From a virus, in IMG/VR virus record IMGVR_UViG_3300031566_000406, positions 1 through 22,219 of that record: a stretch of 22,219 nt of DNA. One strand, 5' to 3'. The notes beneath the pieces were generated by a model. That model was given only the letters and a program-made list of their open reading frames with translations, did not search any database and was not told where the DNA came from. Below are positions 3,354-19,291 of this stretch, one piece after another. Made by a program: the position numbers and the translations under genes. The first letter of the stretch is position 1. The number at the start of each line of letters is the position of its first letter.

Positions 3354-3624
3354 GATTGACGGCAAGAAGATTGAGCTTACTTTAAAGCAGGCGCAGCAGT
3401 TGAAAGATGTGCTGAACGATACGTTTGGCGAGACGGTTACGGAGTATATTTACCCGTATCATGCGTATCCGTACTCTACCACGACATTTACTACCACCAC
3501 CCAGCCCACCGTCACCCGGCCGCAGATATGGTGTAATGCTGGCGATACATACGCCATGAGTGCTGCGAATATATCGGGTGAACTTAACAGCAGTGGGACG
3601 ATGACGCTTGCTCTCAACGGCTAA
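3322..3624 (+). CDS. unknown protein between terS and terL
   Basis: This 100-residue protein starts MKVKIAKICLEIDGKKIELT with AGGAG 9 bases upstream. The first ~35 residues look like a compact beta-alpha unit (LTLKQAQQLKDVLNDTF). A Tyr/Pro and Thr-rich linker follows (HAYPYSTTTFTTTTQPT), then a beta-like C-terminus ending in ELNSSGTMTLALNG. It overlaps terS by 32 bases and terL by 17, so translation is coupled to both terminase subunits. I do not recognise a family and assign no function. Confidence 0.7.
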   Translation: MKVKIAKICLEIDGKKIELTLKQAQQLKDVLNDTFGETVTEYIYPYHAYPYSTTTFTTTTQPTVTRPQIWCNAGDTYAMSAANISGELNSSGTMTLALNG

Positions 3625-5194
3625 ACACAACGCGTATCTGCAGGAGCTCTATCGTAGAGAGCTGTTGAAGCGCGATTTGCTGGAGTTTACCAAGGAGATC
3701 GAAGGGCCCAACTACATGGCTGGCTGGGTCCATCGGGATATCTGTCATCGGCTGGAAAAGTTCTCCCAGGCCGTAATAAATCAGCAGTCTCCGCGTTTAA
3801 TGTTGTTGATGCCGCCGCGACACGGGAAAAGTATCCTGGCCAGCCAGGTTTTCCCTTCCTGGCACCTCGGGTTGCAGCCAAGTCATGAAATTATCAATGT
3901 TGGATACAATCTAGACCTTCCAACTCGATTCTCACGCAGAGTGAGGGATATTCTCGCACAGCCGGAATATCATGCAATTTTCCCGGACACACAGTTAGAT
4001 CCTAAATCTCAGGGCGTTGAAGCCTGGTTGACCAGTTCCAGAGGTGGTTTTACCGCTGCCGGACGTGGTGGTGGTATCACCGGTAAGGGTGCGCACGTAC
4101 TTATTGTCGACGACCCCATAAAAAACATGGAAGAGGCGGATAATTTTGACATCCGTGAGAAATTGGAGGATTGGTACTTCTCCACAGCCTATACGCGCTT
4201 GGCCCCTGGTGGCGGCGTGCTTATTATCGAGACGATGTGGCACGACGACGACCTCGCTGGACGGCTACTCACTAAGATGGACACCGAGCCGGACGCGGAG
4301 CAGTTTGAGGTTATAAGGTATCCGGCCATCAGTACGAAGTACGAGTATCGGGACACCACCACCCAGGTTATGCAGTACTCCGACACCCAGTTGAAGGATA
4401 AAACCCTAGAGTTGCTACGGCCGCCGGGCGAGGCGCTCCACTCCGAGCGTTATCCGCTCGAGTTTCTTACACGGGTGAGGAATAACGCCCCGGCACGAGT
4501 CTGGTCAGCGCTGTATCAACAGGATCCTGTGCCTGAGGAAGGTCTGGTTTTCTCGCGTGATATGTTCCACTACGCCCCATCTATACCGTCGAAGTCGAAT
4601 AAGCGGTACTACATCGCGTGGGATTTTGCCATCAGCGAAAAACAGAGGGCGGATTACACCGTTGGCGTCTGCCTGATGCAGGATGAGAACGATAACCTGT
4701 ATTTGGTTGACTTGGTACGTTTTCAGGCTGGAACTGAGCGTATTACTGACGAATTTATTAATATGATCAAGCGTTGGTCCGGGATTTCCGGTTCTACTCT
4801 GAATTTGGGGGTTGAGGACGGGCAGATTTGGAAAGCGATTAAGTCTACGTTGATGCAGCGGATGAAAGAAGAGAAGGCGTATGTAGCAATTGAAGTGTTA
4901 CAGGCGATCTCAGATAAACAGTCACGTGCTACGGCATTACAGGGCCGGATGGAGCACGGACGTTTCTGGTTTATCGCCGGCAAGCCGTATAATAAAGAAG
5001 CTGAGCGCGAGCTACAGCGATTCCCAGCAGGTAGGAACGATGATATAGTAGATGCCATCTCCTGGGCCGTACGACTAGCTACCGGCAAGAAACCCCGACG
5101 AGCTCCCGTAGCTAAGAAAATTAAGTCATGGAAGGATGAACTTAACAAACACTTGGGGCACGGTACCACCGGCAGCGGACACATGTCTGCCTAG
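3608..5194 (+). CDS. terL: terminase large subunit (packaging ATPase/nuclease)
   Basis: This 528-residue protein is the ATP-driven DNA packaging motor and headful/cos nuclease. Walker A is PPRHGKS (69-75), Walker B VLIVDDP (164-170), and the coupling motif is near ETMWHDDD (208-215). The RNase H-like nuclease has acidic residues at D339 (AWDFA), E403 (GVEDG) and D478/D479 (NDDIVDA). Length and motif order are normal for the family. The start must be TTG 3608 because a stop lies two codons upstream in frame and the first ATG (codon 37) would lose the conserved helical N-terminus (YRRELLKRDLLEFTKE). The weak start overlapping the previous gene suggests low, coupled expression. Confidence 0.95.
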   Translation: MLSTAKHNAYLQELYRRELLKRDLLEFTKEIEGPNYMAGWVHRDICHRLEKFSQAVINQQSPRLMLLMPPRHGKSILASQVFPSWHLGLQPSHEIINVGYNLDLPTRFSRRVRDILAQPEYHAIFPDTQLDPKSQGVEAWLTSSRGGFTAAGRGGGITGKGAHVLIVDDPIKNMEEADNFDIREKLEDWYFSTAYTRLAPGGGVLIIETMWHDDDLAGRLLTKMDTEPDAEQFEVIRYPAISTKYEYRDTTTQVMQYSDTQLKDKTLELLRPPGEALHSERYPLEFLTRVRNNAPARVWSALYQQDPVPEEGLVFSRDMFHYAPSIPSKSNKRYYIAWDFAISEKQRADYTVGVCLMQDENDNLYLVDLVRFQAGTERITDEFINMIKRWSGISGSTLNLGVEDGQIWKAIKSTLMQRMKEEKAYVAIEVLQAISDKQSRATALQGRMEHGRFWFIAGKPYNKEAERELQRFPAGRNDDIVDAISWAVRLATGKKPRRAPVAKKIKSWKDELNKHLGHGTTGSGHMSA

Positions 5195-5227
5195 ATTTTG
5201 GAGCCACAACCTATAGGAGATTTTAAG

Positions 5228-5605
5228 ATGAGTAGAGGTAGATATTCAGACAGATATACAGACCCAAGCGCAGGAGTTCCCCCTGTCTACCCGACCGGCG
5301 CTGCCCAGGCTATTACTGGTGCAGGAGCTGTAACGATCACGGAAGTATTAACCAAGTTCACAAGTGACGGCGCTGCACAAGCGCTGACTTTGGCTGATGG
5401 ACATACCGTTGGGCAGATTAAGACGGTAGTACATTATGTTGATGGCGGCAGTGGCGTTCTTACTCCGGCCAACTTCGTAGATGGTGCAACAGTTACGTTC
5501 ACAGTTCTGGGCGAATCCTGGACTGGAATGTGGACGGCAGCAGGTTGGACGACTGTAGCTGAAAGTGCTGGCATCGTTGGAACGGCATTTCCTGCAACTG
5601 CATAA
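5228..5605 (+). CDS. small beta-rich virion-like protein
   Basis: I start at ATG 5228 because GGAG lies 8 bases upstream; an in-frame TTG at 5198 would only add residues containing that site. The 125-residue product has a Gly/Ser/Arg N-terminus (MSRGRYSDRYTDPSAG), then AAQAITGAGAVTITEVLTKF and AAQALTLADGHTVGQIKTVV, followed by GVLTPANFVDGATVTFTVLG. This 'ITGAGAV.I.....T.F...G..ALTLADG..VGQ.K' pattern is one I recognise from many phage head-region proteins, often called capsid or decoration-like. Surface decoration is inference. It sits between terL and portal with its own good ribosome-binding site. Confidence 0.65.
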   Translation: MSRGRYSDRYTDPSAGVPPVYPTGAAQAITGAGAVTITEVLTKFTSDGAAQALTLADGHTVGQIKTVVHYVDGGSGVLTPANFVDGATVTFTVLGESWTGMWTAAGWTTVAESAGIVGTAFPATA

Positions 5606-5973: not shown

Positions 5974-7989
5974 ATGAAACAGCAGGTTGCACTGGAAACA
6001 TGGTGGAGATACCAATATCTTCGTGACAATGGCCACCTTAAGTTCGTTAAGAAGTTCAACGAGTGCGATCAGTTTTTTGCTGGCGATCAGTGGGACCTCG
6101 AAGATAAAGCCCGTCTGGATAACGAAGATCGCCCAGCACTGACAATCAATAAAATTCTCGCAACTATCGCCAGTATCACCGGCGAGCAGATATTTAACCG
6201 TACTGAGATCAGTTTCCGCCCGCGTAGAGCTGGCGCAACGGAAGATACGGCTACAGCCCTTACCCGCGTGTTCATGCAGATCAGTGATAACAACCAACTT
6301 CCGTGGGTACGTACCGACGTATATATGGACGGACTTATTGGTTCTCGTGGTTTCTACGATGTACGGCTTGGTTTCTCCGATTCCATGCAGGGCGAAGCCC
6401 GTGTCCGACAGTTGAATCCTAAAAACGTACTGATTGATGCAGATGCCAGTACCTATGACCCTAACGAGTGGAACGATGTCATTATCACCAAGTGGCTGAC
6501 CCTGGATGAGGTAGAACTGACGCATGGTAAGAAGTGGCGTAAGAAGTTAGAAGGTAGTGCTACCGATATATCCATGTACGAGTATGACCAGCAGGACTGG
6601 GACGAAGATTCGTTTGGTACCTCGGAAAACAACATCAATTTCCTGAATGTTGATAACCAGCCGGTTATGAAGGTGGTACGTGTTCTGGAACGTCAGCATA
6701 AACAGCTCGATCGTCGGGAACACCTGGTCAACATGCTGACCGGCGACATTCGCGAGGTTCCTGCAGATTGGTCGAAGGCCGAGCTTACTAGTTTTGTTAT
6801 GGAGAATGAAGAGTACGACACCATTATGAAGGTGGCTCCCCGTATCCGCTGGACAGTCTGTGCCGGTATGGAAGTTCTGCACGATGACTGGTCCCCATAC
6901 AAATATTTTACTGTCGTACCGTTTTTCCCCTATTTCCGTCGTGGTAAGACCATTGGTATTGTAGAGAACCTGCTTGATCCGCAACGACTGGTGAATAAGG
7001 TGAGCTCCCAGGAGTTACATGTTGTTAACACAACTGCGAACTCAGGTTGGATTGTGAAGGGCGGTTCCCTGCAGAACATGACCATTGGCGAGCTTGAAGA
7101 TCGAGGCGCGAAGACTGGTCTGGTCATGGAGATGGATGAAACGGCTGACGCGGTAAAGATTACGCCGAATCAGGTTCCTACTGGCCTTGAACGCATTGCG
7201 TACAAGGCCGAAGAGCATATCAAGACTATTTCAGGTCAGCCGGATGCGAATACCGGTTTTGCCAGAGAAGATGTTTCTGCTAAAGCACTAAAAGCGAATC
7301 AGACCAATGCAAGTGCGAACTTTGCCATCGTGCAGGACAACCTGGCGCGTACGGACCACTACCTCGCACGAGCATTGTTGCATCTGGTGCAGACTTATTA
7401 CACCGAAGAGCGTTTGATCTTCATAACCACTGATCCGCTGCGTAAGCAGACTGAAGAGATCAAGGTTAACGAAGTCTCGCCAGAGGGCGAAATCATTAAT
7501 GATTTGATGCTTGGTGAGTACGATATCGTAGTGACAAATCAGCCTGAAAGGGATACACTTGAAGATAGCACTTTTGCCCAATCGGTCGAAATGCGTAAGG
7601 AGCTGAACATACCGATACCTGACTCCGTACTTATTAAAGCAAGCCGTTTGACGAATAAAGCGGAGATTGTCCAAGCTATTGAAGACCAACAAAACAGTCC
7701 TGAAGCGCAACAAGCCAAGCAGATCGAGCAGGCTGATAAAATGGCCGACGTTAGAGTCAAGGAATCTGATGCGGCCAGGAATATGGCTGATGCGCAAGTC
7801 AAGAGTATCAAGGGAGCGCAGGACAGGCTTAATCTGCAGACGCCTATTTCCCCAGAAGTGCAGTTACGTGTTAAAGCGGACCTCGCGAAAGCGAAGTACG
7901 AGACGGACGAGAAATACAAGTTCGAGCGCGATAAGTTAAACCACCCATCACAAAACAAGCCGGAGCCTAAAAATGTCAAAGACAAGTGA
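5974..7989 (+). CDS. portal protein, P22-like
   Basis: This 671-residue protein forms the dodecameric ring at the DNA-entry vertex of the head. The N-terminal part has FFAGDQW (34-40), RPALTINKI (53-61) and GEQIFNR (70-76), then GSRGFYDVRL and RQLNPKNVLIDADASTYDPN. These phrases mark the P22 gp1-type portal family, and the length is close to that of P22. The C-terminal ~90 residues are Gln/Lys/Ala-rich helices (QQAKQIEQADKMADVRV), which in P22 build the barrel inside the head. AAGGA lies 7 bases before the ATG. The 3' end overlaps the scaffold gene by 17 bases, a usual coupling in head modules. Confidence 0.92.
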   Translation: MKQQVALETWWRYQYLRDNGHLKFVKKFNECDQFFAGDQWDLEDKARLDNEDRPALTINKILATIASITGEQIFNRTEISFRPRRAGATEDTATALTRVFMQISDNNQLPWVRTDVYMDGLIGSRGFYDVRLGFSDSMQGEARVRQLNPKNVLIDADASTYDPNEWNDVIITKWLTLDEVELTHGKKWRKKLEGSATDISMYEYDQQDWDEDSFGTSENNINFLNVDNQPVMKVVRVLERQHKQLDRREHLVNMLTGDIREVPADWSKAELTSFVMENEEYDTIMKVAPRIRWTVCAGMEVLHDDWSPYKYFTVVPFFPYFRRGKTIGIVENLLDPQRLVNKVSSQELHVVNTTANSGWIVKGGSLQNMTIGELEDRGAKTGLVMEMDETADAVKITPNQVPTGLERIAYKAEEHIKTISGQPDANTGFAREDVSAKALKANQTNASANFAIVQDNLARTDHYLARALLHLVQTYYTEERLIFITTDPLRKQTEEIKVNEVSPEGEIINDLMLGEYDIVVTNQPERDTLEDSTFAQSVEMRKELNIPIPDSVLIKASRLTNKAEIVQAIEDQQNSPEAQQAKQIEQADKMADVRVKESDAARNMADAQVKSIKGAQDRLNLQTPISPEVQLRVKADLAKAKYETDEKYKFERDKLNHPSQNKPEPKNVKDK

Positions 7990-8884
7990 AGAACTGAAAG
8001 CTGAAGCAATCGCTAGAGGCGATATTGTAGACGAAGTTGAGGAAGAAGAAGAAGACGAGGAAGAAGACGAGGAAGAAGAAGAAGTCGTCGAGGAAGAAGA
8101 AGTCGTCGAGGAAGAAGAAGAAGACGACGAGCCCGGCGAGGACCCGGACGAAGAAATCCAGGTTCCTAAGGCACGTTTTGACCAGGCCCAGAAAGCTGCT
8201 CGTAAACGCCAGCGTGAACTTGAAGCGCGTATCGCGCAGATGGAGAGAGCGCAGGAAAGTGAGACAGTAGAATCAGATATTTCTACGTTGCAGACGGAGA
8301 TAGAGGAGCTTGAGGATAAGCACGAGAACGATCTTCTGGAAGGCAATCTTGAAGAAGCTAAAGCTGCCCGCAGGTCACTGGCCACCAAGCGCGACGCGCT
8401 TTTGGATTTGCGCATTGCTGAAAAGAGCAATGCCGTAGGCGAAGCTGCTATCCAGCAGATGCGTTATGATGCGCAGCTCGCTCAGCAGGAAGCCGCGCAT
8501 CCTAGTATGAACCCGGACGCGGTGGAATTTGATCAGGAAGTAGCGAACGAGGTCTCAGTCCTGATGAATTCATTCCAGGCTGGTGGTTTTAACATGGTGG
8601 CTTCGCTGAACAAAGCCGTCCACTATGTACTTGGCAATGGCGATCCAGCACCCGGTACAACTGATACGGACATCATCCGTACAGAACGTGCGAAAAAAGC
8701 TCGTAAAAAAGCGCTGGAAACAATTAAAAAGACCCCTAGTGATTTGAACGATGTAGGGCGTAACTCTGACAAAGCCGGTCGCGACGACGGCCTGCCTGAT
8801 CCGTTGAAGATGACCCAGAAGCAGTTTGACAAGCTTACCGAGAAACAGCTTGCTGCATTACGCGAAGACAAGATGACACACTAA
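7973..8884 (+). CDS. head scaffolding protein
   Basis: The 303-residue protein lies between portal and capsid genes, the usual place for scaffold. It has an extremely acidic segment (residues ~19-62, almost all Glu/Asp with Val pairs) and a predicted coiled coil (~66-145, KARFDQAQKAARKRQRELEA and onward). A Gln/Ala/Met region follows, then a basic helical C-terminus (ERAKKARKKALETIKKTP and a final TEKQLAALREDKM). In P22-type phages the basic C-terminus of scaffold binds the coat protein, and the same is likely here. The family diverges quickly, so the assignment rests on composition, size and position. The Glu-rich stretch is nearly all GAA/GAG/GAC codons. Confidence 0.8.
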   Translation: MSKTSEELKAEAIARGDIVDEVEEEEEDEEEDEEEEEVVEEEEVVEEEEEDDEPGEDPDEEIQVPKARFDQAQKAARKRQRELEARIAQMERAQESETVESDISTLQTEIEELEDKHENDLLEGNLEEAKAARRSLATKRDALLDLRIAEKSNAVGEAAIQQMRYDAQLAQQEAAHPSMNPDAVEFDQEVANEVSVLMNSFQAGGFNMVASLNKAVHYVLGNGDPAPGTTDTDIIRTERAKKARKKALETIKKTPSDLNDVGRNSDKAGRDDGLPDPLKMTQKQFDKLTEKQLAALREDKMTH

Positions 8885-9336
8885 TGGGCGTCACATACAA
8901 CAGCCTTACGCAGAATATGCTCAACGGGCATGACGATATGTTAGATGCGATGTCACAAATTACCGGCGCTACGCAAACTGCCACCGACATAAATTACCAA
9001 AAGCAGGCTATGGACCAACTGTCCTCATATTATAAGAACAGACTGGATAGCCTGGCTTATGATGCTATGAACCACCAGACCGCGAAGGAGGAAGACTTCG
9101 AGGTACTACGTGACTTCTTAGTTGACATGTGCGCGGGCACTTTCTCGGAGGAAGCTCCGTCACAGGAAGAATGGACGAAGCTCCGTGATCTGGTTAAAGC
9201 AACTGCTGTAGAGCACGCTCTGTTGAACCGGGAGGAGAAAAAGGCCGTAAAAAAGCCGGGGCTCTTCGGAGCGGGGATAGCCGGAGACAGAGTGTTGGAG
9301 GGAAACGAGGAAGCCCTACGAATTTTTCAGCGCTGA
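8884..9336 (+). CDS. small helical protein ending in a capsid-like motif
   Basis: This 150-residue gene starts at an ATG overlapping the scaffold stop by one base (TAATG). Residues 1-125 are mostly helical and unrecognised. Residues 129-145 (GAGIAGDRVLEGNEEAL) match 14 of 17 positions of capsid residues 68-84 (GDGIAGDRTLEGNEEAM), yet 11 of the 14 shared codons differ at synonymous positions. The frame then ends at TGA 9334. A run of five T at 9323-9327 would allow a -1 shift into a 45-codon extension that is again capsid-like. It could be a minor head protein, an assembly regulator, or a relic of an ancient capsid duplication; the sequence alone does not decide. Confidence 0.65.
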   Translation: MGVTYNSLTQNMLNGHDDMLDAMSQITGATQTATDINYQKQAMDQLSSYYKNRLDSLAYDAMNHQTAKEEDFEVLRDFLVDMCAGTFSEEAPSQEEWTKLRDLVKATAVEHALLNREEKKAVKKPGLFGAGIAGDRVLEGNEEALRIFQR

Positions 9337-9461
9337 CTGAAGAGCAGAAGAAGATGTGGGCGGGAACTATGTGGACGGCTGGTCAGAAGTCTTCGCTTCT
9401 GGGTAAGTTCCAAGGAAAATCAGCCAGTCTCCTCATCATAGACGATCCAATTAAAGCCTAA
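9321..9461 (+). pseudogene. -1-frame extension with capsid N-terminus-like and TerL-like sequence
   Basis: In the -1 frame relative to the preceding gene, 46 codons are open to TAA 9459. They start NFSALTEEQKKMWAGTMW, which aligns without gaps to capsid residues 5-22 (NFAALTDEAKTIWSMDMW), and continue with 13 identities over 32 residues to about capsid residue 36. The last residues, LLIIDDPIKA, resemble the Walker B strand of this phage's own large terminase (VLIVDDPIKN, 164-173). There is no start codon or ribosome-binding site for this piece, so it is either reached by frameshifting at the T5 run or is a dead remnant. Confidence 0.55.
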
Positions 9462-9465
9462 ACAC

Positions 9466-9492
9466 CTAGCCCTCTTTACGAGGGCTAGCTTT
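9466..9492 (+). terminator. stem-loop terminator candidate
   Basis: CTAGCCCTC (9466-9474) pairs perfectly with GAGGGCTAG (9480-9488), loop TTTAC, followed by a short CTTTAA. It starts 4 bases after the TAA of the -1-frame extension, not after the TGA of the main frame. This fits a transcript whose coding region ends at 9461. Confidence 0.6.
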
Positions 9493-9624
9493 AAGTGCTA
9501 CTATCGTAGTCCGAAGTCCCTATGCGACAGTTAGGGAGGCGAGCTAAGAGCCCACACTTGCAGTCGCTTCGTTGGTGCGAGATTCCAACAAACTAAATCT
9601 TTTAATCAAGCAAGGAGTACTCGC
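9493..9624 (+). promoter_or_regulatory. structured leader ahead of the capsid gene
   Basis: No gene is seen here. TACTATC (9499-9505) echoes the leftward-block repeat. Two hairpins follow: TCCCTA/TAGGGA (9517-9537) and GTTGG/CCAAC (9571-9589). A strong AAGGAG lies 8 bases before the capsid ATG. A capsid promoter or a stable 5' leader for high expression is likely, but no clear -35/-10 is seen. A tRNA was considered and does not fit. Confidence 0.45.
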
Positions 9625-10716
9625 ATGGCGAATACAAACTTTGCGGCGCTAACAGACGAAGCAAAAACCATCTGGTCGATGGATATGTGGAAGCACGCCC
9701 GCAATCACTCATTTATGAATCAGTTCACTGGAACAGGCAGTAATGCCATGATCCAGCGTATTACTGAACTGAAAAAGACCGAAAAGGGCGCGAGAGCGGT
9801 AATTACATTACTCTCCGATCTGGAAGGCGACGGCATCGCAGGTGATCGTACGCTGGAAGGTAACGAGGAAGCAATGAAGTCCTATGACAAAGTCATTAGG
9901 ATTGATCAGCTTCGTCACGCGAATAAAAACGAAGGCCGCATGGCCGATCAAAAATCAATCGTCGAGTTCCGTGGCAATAGCCGCGACAAGCTCGCTTATT
10001 GGTTGGCAGATCGCCTTGACCAAATGGCATTTCTAACTCTGGGTGGTTTCTCTTACACCCTGAAGCCAGATGGTACTACCCGTGTGGGTTCCGACCTTCC
10101 TTACCTCGAGTTTGCAGCTGATGTAGTAGCCCCTACCGCGCTTAGGCGTTGTCAGTGGGATGCAACCACTGGTTTGAATGTTGGTGGTGCAACTACTGAT
10201 ATCGTTTCTGACGATAAAATCACCTGGGAAACCTTGGTACGTATGCGCGAACTGGCTAAAAACCAGTATGTTCGTGGTCTGCGTCCTGAAGGCGGACTCG
10301 ATGAAATGTTCCATGTATTCATGACGCCTACTTGTATGGCGAACTTGAAGATGGACAACGACTACATGTTGAATCTCCGTCACTCAACTGCTGCTGGTGT
10401 TAATAGCAAGCTGTTCGGTGGTGGCTCTGTCAACGTCGATGGACTGGCGATTCACGAATTCCGTCATGTACCACATAGTTCCCTTTGGGGTTCTGGTGCA
10501 GTATCGGGTTCAACAGTTCTGATGTGTGGTGCTCAAGCTTTGGCTTTTGCCGATATCGGTAACCCGATTTGGGTTGAGAAAGAGTTTGATTATGACAATC
10601 AGCCTGCGATCTCCGTTCAGAAAATGATGGGCTTCCTGAAGCCTCAATTTAACAGCATCTATGCAAGCAACACCGTACAGGATCACGGCGTTATCACTTG
10701 CTACGTTGCAGATTAA
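9625..10716 (+). CDS. major capsid protein, N4-gp56 family
   Basis: This 363-residue protein is the shell subunit. It contains the family's hallmark stretches: GSNAMIQRITELKKTEKGAR (38-57), GDGIAGDRTLEGNEEA (68-83), IDQLRHANKNEGRMADQKS (93-111) and DKLAYWLADRLDQMAFLTLG (121-140). I recognise these as the N4-gp56 major capsid family, and the length is normal. The start has the strongest ribosome-binding site in the region (AAGGAG, 8-base spacing), and the leader is set off by a terminator-like hairpin, both consistent with high independent expression. A small beta-rich gene follows 12 bases after the stop. Confidence 0.93.
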   Translation: MANTNFAALTDEAKTIWSMDMWKHARNHSFMNQFTGTGSNAMIQRITELKKTEKGARAVITLLSDLEGDGIAGDRTLEGNEEAMKSYDKVIRIDQLRHANKNEGRMADQKSIVEFRGNSRDKLAYWLADRLDQMAFLTLGGFSYTLKPDGTTRVGSDLPYLEFAADVVAPTALRRCQWDATTGLNVGGATTDIVSDDKITWETLVRMRELAKNQYVRGLRPEGGLDEMFHVFMTPTCMANLKMDNDYMLNLRHSTAAGVNSKLFGGGSVNVDGLAIHEFRHVPHSSLWGSGAVSGSTVLMCGAQALAFADIGNPIWVEKEFDYDNQPAISVQKMMGFLKPQFNSIYASNTVQDHGVITCYVAD

Positions 10717-15426: not shown

Positions 15427-15726
15427 ATGCCTTGCAATGGCAACAGTACAGGGCACTGTTGTTGGCTGGAAGGTAATGTCTGTGACCATCTCGAAGAGGA
15501 CACAATGCCTGGACGAAAGTGGGTGTGCGGATTACGGAGAAAGCTAGGTAACTGGGACCTGGTTCTGGCGTCACCAGAGTACAAGACTGATGTAGCACCG
15601 AAATTGAATCCAGGTATTAATTGCAAGGACTGGCCTGATAAGCCGTTAACCAAATGCTTCGAGTGCGGTTTTGCTGTAAAGTCTTCAGATAAAGGCAATC
15701 GATGGGGTACTGATAATGACAATTGA
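15427..15726 (+). CDS. cysteine-rich small protein
   Basis: The 99-residue protein has eight cysteines: C3, C11, C12, C19, C34, C66, C77 and C80. The opening MPCNGNSTGHCCWLEGNVCD, then EEDTMPGRKWVCGLRRKLGN, is a pattern I recall from small phage proteins found next to fibre genes (CCW...C..LEE...PGRKW.CGLR). The last pair, KCFECGF, could bind metal. The function is unknown to me. It overlaps the giant repeat gene by 11 bases, so their translation is probably coupled. Confidence 0.65.
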   Translation: MPCNGNSTGHCCWLEGNVCDHLEEDTMPGRKWVCGLRRKLGNWDLVLASPEYKTDVAPKLNPGINCKDWPDKPLTKCFECGFAVKSSDKGNRWGTDNDN

Positions 15727-18700
15727 GTATCTAGTACCCGGTGCGGCGGCGACAACAACCACCACGCAGATACTTGCAACGAATACCTATACCCTGATAG
15801 ATGATGGGGCCACGAACGGGCTTGTAACTGACGCTGATGGTTCCGTCAATGATACCAATATAAATGACACTTCGGCGGCTGGCACTGACGCGATATGGGC
15901 GTTGGCTGATCTCGCTGCATTTGGTGCTTTAAACGGGGCAACTTTCAGAGTCAGAGCGCGGACAGTCAATCCCGGCTCGGGCGACACATATACATACACA
16001 TTTGCGCTCGCTATTGGCGGCGACACGATCAACATAACTTGGTCTAACGCTGATGAAAATGCAGGGTTTGCGAACAGGACAGCAGACCTTTCAGGTGAAG
16101 CTGGTTATCCGTACACCGAAGCACAATTCAACGCCGCCACAGTAACACTTACCCAGAGTGCTTATCTCAAAGACAAAGGGCCAGATGGCTTTTATCTGGA
16201 CGTTGATGCGCTTGAACTTGAGGTAGATTACGCGCCAACATTCACGGGTACAATTACCCAAACTCTTGGCTCTATAAACCAGTCCATGACTGGCGTTGTT
16301 CATGACATAGGTGTTATTAACCAGACGATATCAGCCGTGTCGCAGATCATGTCTGGTATTGTCCATACAATAGGTAACATTACCCAGCTGTTACCCAGGA
16401 TCACTCAGTCCGGAGCCGGTGAGCATGATCCTCCGGTGTTCTCTGGTGTTGCTACACAAACCCTGCCTTCTGTAACCCAAGCGGGGACTGCTGAGTTTCT
16501 TGCAGCAGATAACAACCGTTCAGGCGTAATCATTCAGACCTTACCGACTCTCACACAGTCAGGGACTGCTAGTGCCCCATCTACGGGGGCGATTACTCAG
16601 ACCTTGCCCTCTATAACCCAGAGCATGACAGGTAGAGTCTGGGACATAGGTCAGATAAACCAGACTCTACCTGCTATTACTCAGTCGGGTACTGCTAGTG
16701 CTCCATCTACAGGTGTAGCCACACAGACCTTAGGCTCCATTACTCAATCTAGTGCAGGTACCTACGATCCGAAGGACGTAACCAGCGTTGCGATCCAGAC
16801 ACTGCCGTCTATTACTCAGACCTTAGCAGGGATCGTCTGGGATATAGGGGAAATAACGCAGACCCTGCCGTCTATAAACCAGGTTGCTACAGGTACCCAC
16901 GTAGCACCAGTTAGATCAGCTGTTGGTATACAGACTCTTTCGGCTGTAACTCAAAACCTGGCTGGCACCGTATGGGACATAGGGGTTATAACCCAGACGC
17001 TACCCGCTATTACTCAGTCAGGTACGGCCACTCACGAAGTACCTGTATTTAGTGGCGTAATTACTCAGGTTCTATCTTCTATTACTCAGTCTGGTACAGC
17101 TACATGGCTCGAGGGTACTGATACTGGTGCGGGCGCTCAGGTATTACCGTCTATCAATCAGGTCCTGGCGGGCACGTTCGTTCCGCTCATGACTAATGTA
17201 GAGGCTGTTGGTACGCAGACACTACCGGCTATTACTCAGTCTGCTACTGCTACGAACGTATGGCCACAAGGGGTTGCAGTACAAACCTTAGGCTCAGTTA
17301 ATCAATCAGGAGCGGGTACACACGTCGCTCCCGTGTTCTCGGGTGTTGCGACCCAGACTTTCCAACATTCTCCTTATGTTACGACGGGTAAAGAGATCGA
17401 AGCCGATTTTACGGGGCTTGATTCTTTTACCAGAAATGAATTGTGGACAGGTGGAAATGCTCAGAAGCTAACTTTCGCAGCGCATATGCGCGTACCGGTA
17501 AGTGCTGCGAGTTCAAATGTTGTATTCACCACCAATGCGTATTCCCTGTACTGGACTTTCCAATGGTGGTTCGGCGGGGCGACCCAGAACAAGTTTAGCT
17601 TCACCACCGCCAACGATAATACTAACGATTATGCTCAAGTCCAAACAGCGGGCAAAGATGTCCACGGACTAGAAATAGGCGACTGGTTCACCTTGTTTTA
17701 CAGCATAGATTGGAGTGCTGTAGGTGCCCCGACAGTTAATGTCTATGTCCAGAAGAAGGGTAGTTCGACCGTCACCGACATCTACTCTGGTGCAACTTTC
17801 ATTAACGAAGATGATGGCCCGGTTACCCTCTTATTCGATGATACGCAAGGCGGTGCTGCAGTAGGTAAACACGCCTTTTATGGCTCTGAAACGGGAGTAT
17901 TCGAAGTATCCGAATACTTCATGACCAATGAGTACGTTGATTGGTCAGATCCAGCGGAACGACTGAAGTTCACTGATGTTAATGGCCGTCCAGTTGGTCT
18001 CGGTCCGACTGGTGCAGCTCTTACTGGTACACAGGCTAAGATTTATGCTCCTGATGGTGACCTGACCAACAATCTTGGCTCCGGTGGTAACTGGACTGAA
18101 GAAGGGACGATCGATAACAGCTCTACTTCACCCTCTGACGGTGCTGTAGTTAGTAGTTGGTTGAACCAATCAGCTACAGCCAAATACTGGGATTTCGAGG
18201 CTACTGGTACGCAGACTCTACCATCTATTACTCAGTCTGGTACAGGCCAATACTGGGATAACGGAGGGCCGATAACTACTACCTTACCAGGACTTAACCA
18301 GGCTCTAACTGGTACATGGCTCGAAGGCACTGATACTGGAGTTACTGGCCAGACCCTACTTCCAATTAGCCAGGCTTTAACAGGTTGGTATTGGCCAGGG
18401 ACGAAGGTAGGTACTACGACACAGACCTTACAACCCGTTTCTCAGGTAGTAACAGGTATTTCCTGGGAAGGTATCGATACTGGAGTTATTACTCAGACCC
18501 TACCTTCCATTACTCAGTCTGGTACAGCAGAGTTTGCGCCTGGGACTAGTACTGGTGTTATTACTCAGACTCTTAGCTCTGTTGCCCAGTTTGGAACGGC
18601 TGAGTTTGACAGAATATATACAGCCTCTGCCTCACAGACTTTACCGAGTATCACGCAAACAAGTGCAGGTACCTTCGGACCGGGAATTACCACCAGTCTG

Positions 18701-19291
18701 GGTTTCATACTGACACTTCCTGCTATTACGCAGAGCATGGTTGGTAAAGGTTCGAAAGTCGCAACAAGTGCGCAGACGCTTCCGGCTATTACTCAGAGCT
18801 TAACTGGTACCTTCGATCCAGGTACCAAGACTGCGTCATGTACGCAGACCCTACCTTCTATAAATCAGGCTCTTATAGGTAGCCGAACTCGTGTCGGTGT
18901 CGTTACTCAGACGTTAGGAGTTCTAAGCCAAACTCTTAGTGGTGAATATGCTCCAGGTATAACTACCGGCATTATCACCCAAACGCTCCCAGCTATTACC
19001 CAAGTTGCGATAGGTACATGGGATACGGGCACTGATACTGGTGTTATAACGCAGACTTTATCTTCTATTACTCAGACAGGTTCGAGCTTCTTCTTTATAC
19101 CGCTCAGTTTCGATCCTCTTGTCTGGGAGCAACCCGAAGTTGAACAGCTTGTATACCAGCAGGAAGCAGAGCAGTTTACATACGAGCAGACAACTGAAGA
19201 GCTTGTTTGGGAAGTAGTCACAGAAGAATTAGTCTACGAGGTCGAAGAAGACGAGTTCCTATATGGTAATGACCATTTGACGGGGGACTAG
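15716..19291 (+). CDS. giant modular repeat virion protein A (likely fibre)
   Basis: This 1191-residue protein has five parts. Residues 1-178 form a beta-sandwich-like domain with FRVRARTVNPGSGDTYTYTF. Residues 179-549 hold about 17 repeat units of 20-26 residues with core ITQTLPSITQS. Residues 550-830 look like a concanavalin/LamG-type domain (DWFTLFYSIDWSAVGAPTVN, YVDWSDPAERLKFTDVNGRP). Residues 831-1122 hold about 13 more units. The final ~70 residues are an acidic aromatic tail of five or six 9-10-residue repeats (EQLVYQQEA, EELVWEVVT, EELVYEVEE). The LamG-like domain breaks into unit 17. GGGG lies 8 bases before the ATG. No enzyme motif is seen; a receptor-binding or capsid/tail surface fibre is likely. 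Confidence 0.75.
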   Translation: MTIEYLVPGAAATTTTTQILATNTYTLIDDGATNGLVTDADGSVNDTNINDTSAAGTDAIWALADLAAFGALNGATFRVRARTVNPGSGDTYTYTFALAIGGDTINITWSNADENAGFANRTADLSGEAGYPYTEAQFNAATVTLTQSAYLKDKGPDGFYLDVDALELEVDYAPTFTGTITQTLGSINQSMTGVVHDIGVINQTISAVSQIMSGIVHTIGNITQLLPRITQSGAGEHDPPVFSGVATQTLPSVTQAGTAEFLAADNNRSGVIIQTLPTLTQSGTASAPSTGAITQTLPSITQSMTGRVWDIGQINQTLPAITQSGTASAPSTGVATQTLGSITQSSAGTYDPKDVTSVAIQTLPSITQTLAGIVWDIGEITQTLPSINQVATGTHVAPVRSAVGIQTLSAVTQNLAGTVWDIGVITQTLPAITQSGTATHEVPVFSGVITQVLSSITQSGTATWLEGTDTGAGAQVLPSINQVLAGTFVPLMTNVEAVGTQTLPAITQSATATNVWPQGVAVQTLGSVNQSGAGTHVAPVFSGVATQTFQHSPYVTTGKEIEADFTGLDSFTRNELWTGGNAQKLTFAAHMRVPVSAASSNVVFTTNAYSLYWTFQWWFGGATQNKFSFTTANDNTNDYAQVQTAGKDVHGLEIGDWFTLFYSIDWSAVGAPTVNVYVQKKGSSTVTDIYSGATFINEDDGPVTLLFDDTQGGAAVGKHAFYGSETGVFEVSEYFMTNEYVDWSDPAERLKFTDVNGRPVGLGPTGAALTGTQAKIYAPDGDLTNNLGSGGNWTEEGTIDNSSTSPSDGAVVSSWLNQSATAKYWDFEATGTQTLPSITQSGTGQYWDNGGPITTTLPGLNQALTGTWLEGTDTGVTGQTLLPISQALTGWYWPGTKVGTTTQTLQPVSQVVTGISWEGIDTGVITQTLPSITQSGTAEFAPGTSTGVITQTLSSVAQFGTAEFDRIYTASASQTLPSITQTSAGTFGPGITTSLGFILTLPAITQSMVGKGSKVATSAQTLPAITQSLTGTFDPGTKTASCTQTLPSINQALIGSRTRVGVVTQTLGVLSQTLSGEYAPGITTGIITQTLPAITQVAIGTWDTGTDTGVITQTLSSITQTGSSFFFIPLSFDPLVWEQPEVEQLVYQQEAEQFTYEQTTEELVWEVVTEELVYEVEEDEFLYGNDHLTGD
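16250..17362 (+). repeat. coding repeat block A1, about 17 QTLPSITQS units
   Basis: Tandem units of 63-78 bp encode [V/A/Q]I[T/N]QTLPSITQS followed by one of a few linkers (VWDIG, ASAPSTG, THVAPVFSG, TWLEGTDTG, TNVWPQG). The last unit stops after QTF and leads into the LamG-like domain. Confidence 0.9.
18206..19080 (+). repeat. coding repeat block A2, about 13 units
   Basis: The same core resumes after the LamG-like domain with GTQTLPSITQSGTG. Linkers here favour TWLEGTDTG, EFAPGTSTG and TFDPGTKTA types, so this block differs in linker use from block A1. Confidence 0.9.

Follow-up and report, generated by a model that had tools for sequence, protein, structure and literature searches.

A putative coding patchwork gene with capsid-like and terminase-like pieces beside the capsid gene of a tailed phage

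In a genome fragment of 22,219 nucleotides from an uncultured tailed phage (virus record IMGVR_UViG_3300031566_000406; the whole stretch is called the window here), the gene next to the major capsid gene, called X, is best supported, from sequence comparisons, as a coding patchwork gene with recombined pieces of capsid and large terminase subunit (TerL) genes. The gene order in the window is TerL (3608-5194), portal (5974-7989), scaffold-like gene (7973-8884), X (8884-9336) and capsid (9625-10716). The ATG of X overlaps the stop codon of the scaffold-like gene (TAATG). The coordinates, frames and peptides that an earlier sequence-only reading gave for 8884-9461 were found to be correct. The features are as follows.

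3608-5194, plus strand: TerL, from profile and Pfam matches; the -1 end of X is similar to its Walker B.
7973-8884, plus strand: scaffold-like gene 5' of X, its putative function taken from position and conservation.
8884-9336, plus strand: gene X in the unshifted (zero) frame, 150 aa; homologues at the equivalent place in L011-L016, L019 and L021.
8926-8970, plus strand: TerL nuclease-like motif GHDDMLDAMSQITGA, X residues 15-29; TerL profile P=0.001 against shuffles.
8983-9075, plus strand: weak capsid spine-helix-like segment, X residues 34-64; phrog_334 major head protein E 2.2e-4, shuffle P=0.011.
9088-9231, plus strand: conserved core of X, about 50 residues, akin to FVLWLNG...PPTPEQW small phage proteins by alignments and hmmsearch.
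9230-9237, plus strand: Shine-Dalgarno (SD)-like sequence GGGAGGAG, 11 nt 5' of the heptamer.
9249-9255, plus strand: slippery heptamer A_AAA_AAG of dnaX type in the zero frame, the sole one in X; also in L011/L012.
9262-9321, plus strand: capsid E-loop-like segment LFGAGIAGDRVLEGNEEALR, zero frame; capsid profile iE 6.6e-7, 0/2000 shuffles.
9318-9413, plus strand: capsid N-arm-like segment TNFSALTEEQKKMW..., -1 frame; capsid profile iE 1.3e-8, coding-like codon use.
9414-9458, plus strand: TerL Walker B-like segment GKSASLLIIDDPIKA, -1 frame, with the stop at 9459-9461; phrog_4758 E 2.5e-4.
9466-9488, plus strand: hairpin right 3' of the -1 stop, at an equivalent position in relatives.
9625-10716, plus strand: major capsid protein, Phage_capsid_3 (PF13252), HK97 fold, from Pfam, AlphaFold2 and PDB matches to GP4 and Pan3.

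The AlphaFold2 model of the capsid has a predicted HK97 fold, with GP4 and Pan3 as the nearest solved capsids. In it, residues 11-28 form the N-arm helix and residues 115-140 the spine helix, with the E-loop connecting strands 55-62 and 87-91. Among cultured phages, Pseudomonas phages KPP25 and R18 have the most similar capsids (57%). In HK97-fold shells, all three elements make contacts with neighboring subunits (PMC8569155). The N-arm, E-loop and spine-helix pieces of X come from the Phage_capsid_3 family (PF13252; GP4, Pan3), but X is not itself a capsid protein, since it is without the shell fold and carries the pieces out of order. Its predicted structure is poor and mostly helical (pLDDT 54), too poor for a fold search. 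Elsewhere in the window, a long ORF (15716-19291, 1191 aa) is rich in TQTLPSITQSGT-like repeats.

The capsid and TerL likeness of X is, by sequence statistics, real, and it recurs in relatives. In tblastn, the capsid aligns with the zero-frame end of X over 27 aa (55.6%, E 1.8e-4), and the E-loop piece GAGIAGDRVLEGNEEAL is identical to the window capsid at 14/17 positions. The -1 frame matches capsid residues 4-43 (37.5%, E 6e-6), and its end matches TerL 155-172 (61% over 18 aa). These three resemblances had been picked out in the sequence-only reading and they withstood a profile check: the E-loop, N-arm and Walker B scores were reached by 0/2000 shuffles, and reversed profiles gave nothing. 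That reading had missed the N-terminal TerL nuclease-like motif, which includes GHDDMLDAM, and the weaker spine-helix match. In a survey of 165 non-redundant loci (49,004 ORFs, cut-off iE<0.01), the capsid profile found ten non-capsid ORFs and its reversed form 0. The TerL profile matched the tails of X from L013 and the window, the remaining matches being parts of true TerL or chance, and the reversed TerL profile again gave 0. With the portal profile, no comparable fragment was found.

To see X in its relatives, the interval between scaffold and capsid was compared in 11 contigs whose capsids are 74-91% identical to that of the window. X is present in 8/11 (L011 and L012, which have one sequence, L013, L014, L015, L016/L019 and L021), and L017, L018 and L020 have a different small gene at its position. 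The content and order of the pieces vary with each relative. The tail of X in L011/L012 combines Walker A and Walker B, both read in the zero frame (phrog_4758 E 8.8e-8). In L013, the N-arm and Walker B pieces are in frame and placed before the core. In L014 and L021, X has an E-loop-like C-terminus, and in L015 and L016 no significant capsid or TerL piece was found by the shuffle test. In the L011 -1 frame, a likeness to the TerL nuclease was considered but given up, at P=0.07. That relatives keep X with other pieces indicates a real, fast-changing patchwork gene. What the X proteins share is the core, with the consensus FRDFVVWLCG....PPSQEEW..L....K..A.KFA...R. For the core motif F-x-x-W-L...P-P-x-x-x-x-W of the FVLWLNG small proteins, the close X group scores strongly (E 1.5e-23 or better). 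Beyond that group the matches are weak (L031 2.8e-6; the rest 0.001-0.5), yet they lie at the equivalent position between scaffold and capsid genes. The same is true of the FVLWLNG...PPTPEQW small proteins (phrog_35763, phrog_28500), with which the core aligns weakly; unlike X, these relatives have no detected capsid- or TerL-like tails. X gave no match in a phages collection, and a search of viral contigs with the core added no loci to the set.

Small capsid-like ORFs are also found away from X. In a second phage group (L081, L086, L088, L090, L091, L094, L098), the spine-helix motif is carried by separate small ORFs close to the capsid gene. In L088, a small ORF with a good ribosome site (785-964) overlaps the spine-helix ORF in another frame and holds the E-loop-like LEGNEEM. 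In L093, an ORF between TerL and portal (3456-3743) begins with what looks like a signal peptide (MKRRSFLGAILALFTAPVVPALA), and after it comes a stretch similar to capsid 90-149 (iE 3e-8). A spine-helix-like ORF overlaps the scaffold gene in another frame in L016 (2658-2948) and L019 (1924-2214; iE 0.003-0.005). Between X and capsid, L011 (3587-3763) and L014 (4799-4975) have a conserved gene of about 60 aa (MPNLEKARKRLTDLVEGMRDPG...) that is absent in the window.

The pieces of X resemble proteins of other phages at least as well as those of its own phage, as far as sequence matches tell. At the nucleotide level, over short stretches, the E-loop and N-arm pieces match the capsids of L003, L007 and L227/L228 better than that of the window, and a 28-nt stretch of the nuclease-like motif matches L095 at 86%. 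A search of viral contigs with the N-arm and Walker B alignment added one locus, L283, a true TerL. The presence of GKGASLLIIDDP in this TerL means that the 'AS' common to X tails is not unique to X. The better matches to other lineages, together with GKGASLLIIDDP in the unrelated L283 TerL, argue that the pieces are not simple copies of the phage's own genes. An old relic of capsid duplication, which the sequence-only reading had offered as one alternative, is thus not supported in its simple sense, TerL pieces being present also. A mosaic origin of X from capsid and TerL pieces is, on these comparisons, very probable.

A mosaic need not be a mimic. The tails could be by-products, left by illegitimate recombination where it is frequent, beside the capsid gene, with the frame broken by a recent insertion or indel, and only conserved motifs would be recognized in them, since only those can be. 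We regard this as a serious possibility that falls short of probable. It is favored by the short nucleotide matches to other lineages and by the difference in piece order and content in each relative. Against it, the capsid pieces are confined to capsid residues 1-152, although in a test with fragments of distant capsids the C-terminal 270-363 was as detectable as the N-terminal pieces, and yet none was seen. Detection bias alone therefore does not account for the restriction, though few events are involved. The absence of portal pieces also speaks against it.

The coding character of the -1 frame bears on the same question. No stop codon interrupts the -1 frame between 9198 and 9458, and the codon score of 9318-9458 in this frame is 0.24, compared with a true-frame median of 0.31 and values below -0.2 for wrong frames. 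The Walker B tail is read in the -1 frame in the window but in the zero frame in L011; a comparison of the two gives pS 0.84, pN 0.16 and pN/pS 0.19 (core ratio 0.22). Sequence divergence thus indicates that the tail is under protein-level selection since the window/L011 split, unless it was acquired anew in each. For the N-arm and Walker B pair, window against L013, the ratio is looser (0.59). Normal codon use and the low pN/pS of the Walker B tail together indicate that the -1 segment is translated, or was until recently, and neither is what recombination by-products would predict. For the choice between a gene and a relic in the -1 frame, which the sequence-only reading had posed, the evidence is mixed: the distal part looks coding, but 9256-9317 does not in that frame. 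The stretch 9256-9336 has poor codon use in every frame, as by-products could have, and this counts against the explanation we prefer, described below, because it also fits a recent frame-breaking insertion. For the E-loop segment, this leaves dual coding or a recent arrival. The -1 tail also has a weak match to the gene at 5198-5605, which was disregarded (P=0.0025 among many tests).

How the two frames are joined has been considered in two ways. The sequence-only reading placed the change at a T5 run, where a switch would give a single 191-residue fusion bearing all motifs. Homology does change frame around 9318-9336, where the zero-frame and -1-frame similarities overlap. However, the -1 homology can be followed from 9318, 5' of the T5 run, which makes the run a doubtful switch point. 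Its context, CGA ATT TTT CAG, is non-canonical and a poor slip site. A_AAA_AAG, in frame upstream, is a better one, and a shift there would put the E-loop and N-arm on alternative products rather than on one string, dropping the E-loop from the shifted product. We consider the T5 fusion very improbable.

In dnaX-type programmed -1 frameshifting, an A_AAA_AAG heptamer is accompanied by an SD-like element about 10-11 nt upstream and by a downstream stem-loop. X likewise has the heptamer and the SD-like element 11 nt 5' of it, as in E. coli dnaX. In contrast to dnaX, a downstream stem-loop is not supported at X, and the candidate shift would choose between two motif-bearing tails. The RNA 3' of the heptamer folds no better than expected (z -1.15; 28/200 shuffles fold as well), and the fold at the frame junction is likewise ordinary. 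A_AAA_AAG is also found at L011 3429 and L012 5905, and is missing from X of L013-L016 and L021. Between the window and L011, the last four core codons are identical while 19/30 of the other comparable codons differ (about 2% by chance, by rough arithmetic). From these sequence features, we give a -1 frameshift at the heptamer an even chance. A frame break by indel or recent insertion is possible; an exact DNA search of viral contigs for the junction, allowing 0-8 bases, found none, and L010 covers only the -1 end, where it is identical. With no close relative spanning the junction, relatives do not bear on an indel.

The hairpin begins 4 nt past the -1 stop, as the sequence-only reading had it. 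The leader from there to the capsid start codon (9459-9627) is conserved in 10 relatives and could be a leader RNA of the capsid gene. Its fold has changes on both sides in 11/23 pairs, and there was no Rfam match.

We suggest that X serves late in morphogenesis and is coupled to the scaffold gene. To its small conserved core, illegitimate recombination would have added tails from the capsid and TerL genes of related phages. These tails are reshuffled from phage to phage, at least the Walker B tail being kept by protein-level selection. In the window phage and L011, a -1 ribosome slip at A_AAA_AAG directly after the core may yield two products with alternative tails, which in the window would be core plus E-loop, or core plus linker, N-arm and Walker B. 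Through the tails, the assembling head would be presented with the contact-making parts of a capsid protein (N-arm, E-loop, spine helix) and perhaps with parts of the terminase, and particle assembly, of this or a co-infecting phage, could be modulated in this way. As a whole, this explanation is the best we have, with a likelihood somewhat short of even. Assembly modulation as the function is put forward more tentatively, and is favored by where X lies, by its link to the scaffold gene and by the kind of capsid pieces it carries. The spine-helix-like small ORFs near the capsid in L081, L088, L090, L091 and L094 count for the explanation. Counting against it are the low pLDDT, the ordinary RNA fold, the relatives with no heptamer, the pieceless X of L015/L016 and the P value of the L011 -1 frame; moreover, neither folding nor binding is to be expected of Walker motifs that stand alone.

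As proposed, X is comparable to Ccm of SaPIbov5, a protein of capsid origin that is encoded by a small element and influences capsid assembly: Ccm is a capsid-protein homologue that redirects assembly of the helper capsid (PMC8569155). However, Ccm is a full-length HK97-fold capsid homologue, whereas X has only short reordered pieces, and terminase pieces, around an unrelated core. X is also located in the phage's own late operon, unlike Ccm.

Alternatively, X might be a decoy that soaks up host immune sensors of phage structural proteins such as capsid and terminase. Many bacterial immune systems recognize structural components of phages (PMC11364771). The derivation of the pieces from capsid and TerL fits a decoy, as does their quick turnover, which would suit an arms race. 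But expression late, beside the capsid, would be late for a decoy, the motifs are short and without the folds such sensors are thought to read, and no host or sensor is known for the window phage. We find this role improbable. In the literature, no capsid or terminase mimic or decoy of this kind was found.

We think it rather unlikely, though worth stating, that X represents a phage protein family in which interchangeable, selected mimics of capsid contact elements and terminase motifs are carried on a common core, with the tail chosen by programmed frameshifting, so as to disturb or steer head assembly and packaging, whether of its own or of a rival phage, or to decoy immune sensors. If the tails are mimics, phages could reach the surfaces of capsid and terminase in a modular fashion, using short pieces taken from elsewhere, and the sites that matter for contact in assembly or in immune sensing might be found through them. 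If they are not, X is still a case of gene remodelling, a gene in a fixed place that is rebuilt from fragments of adjacent essential genes.
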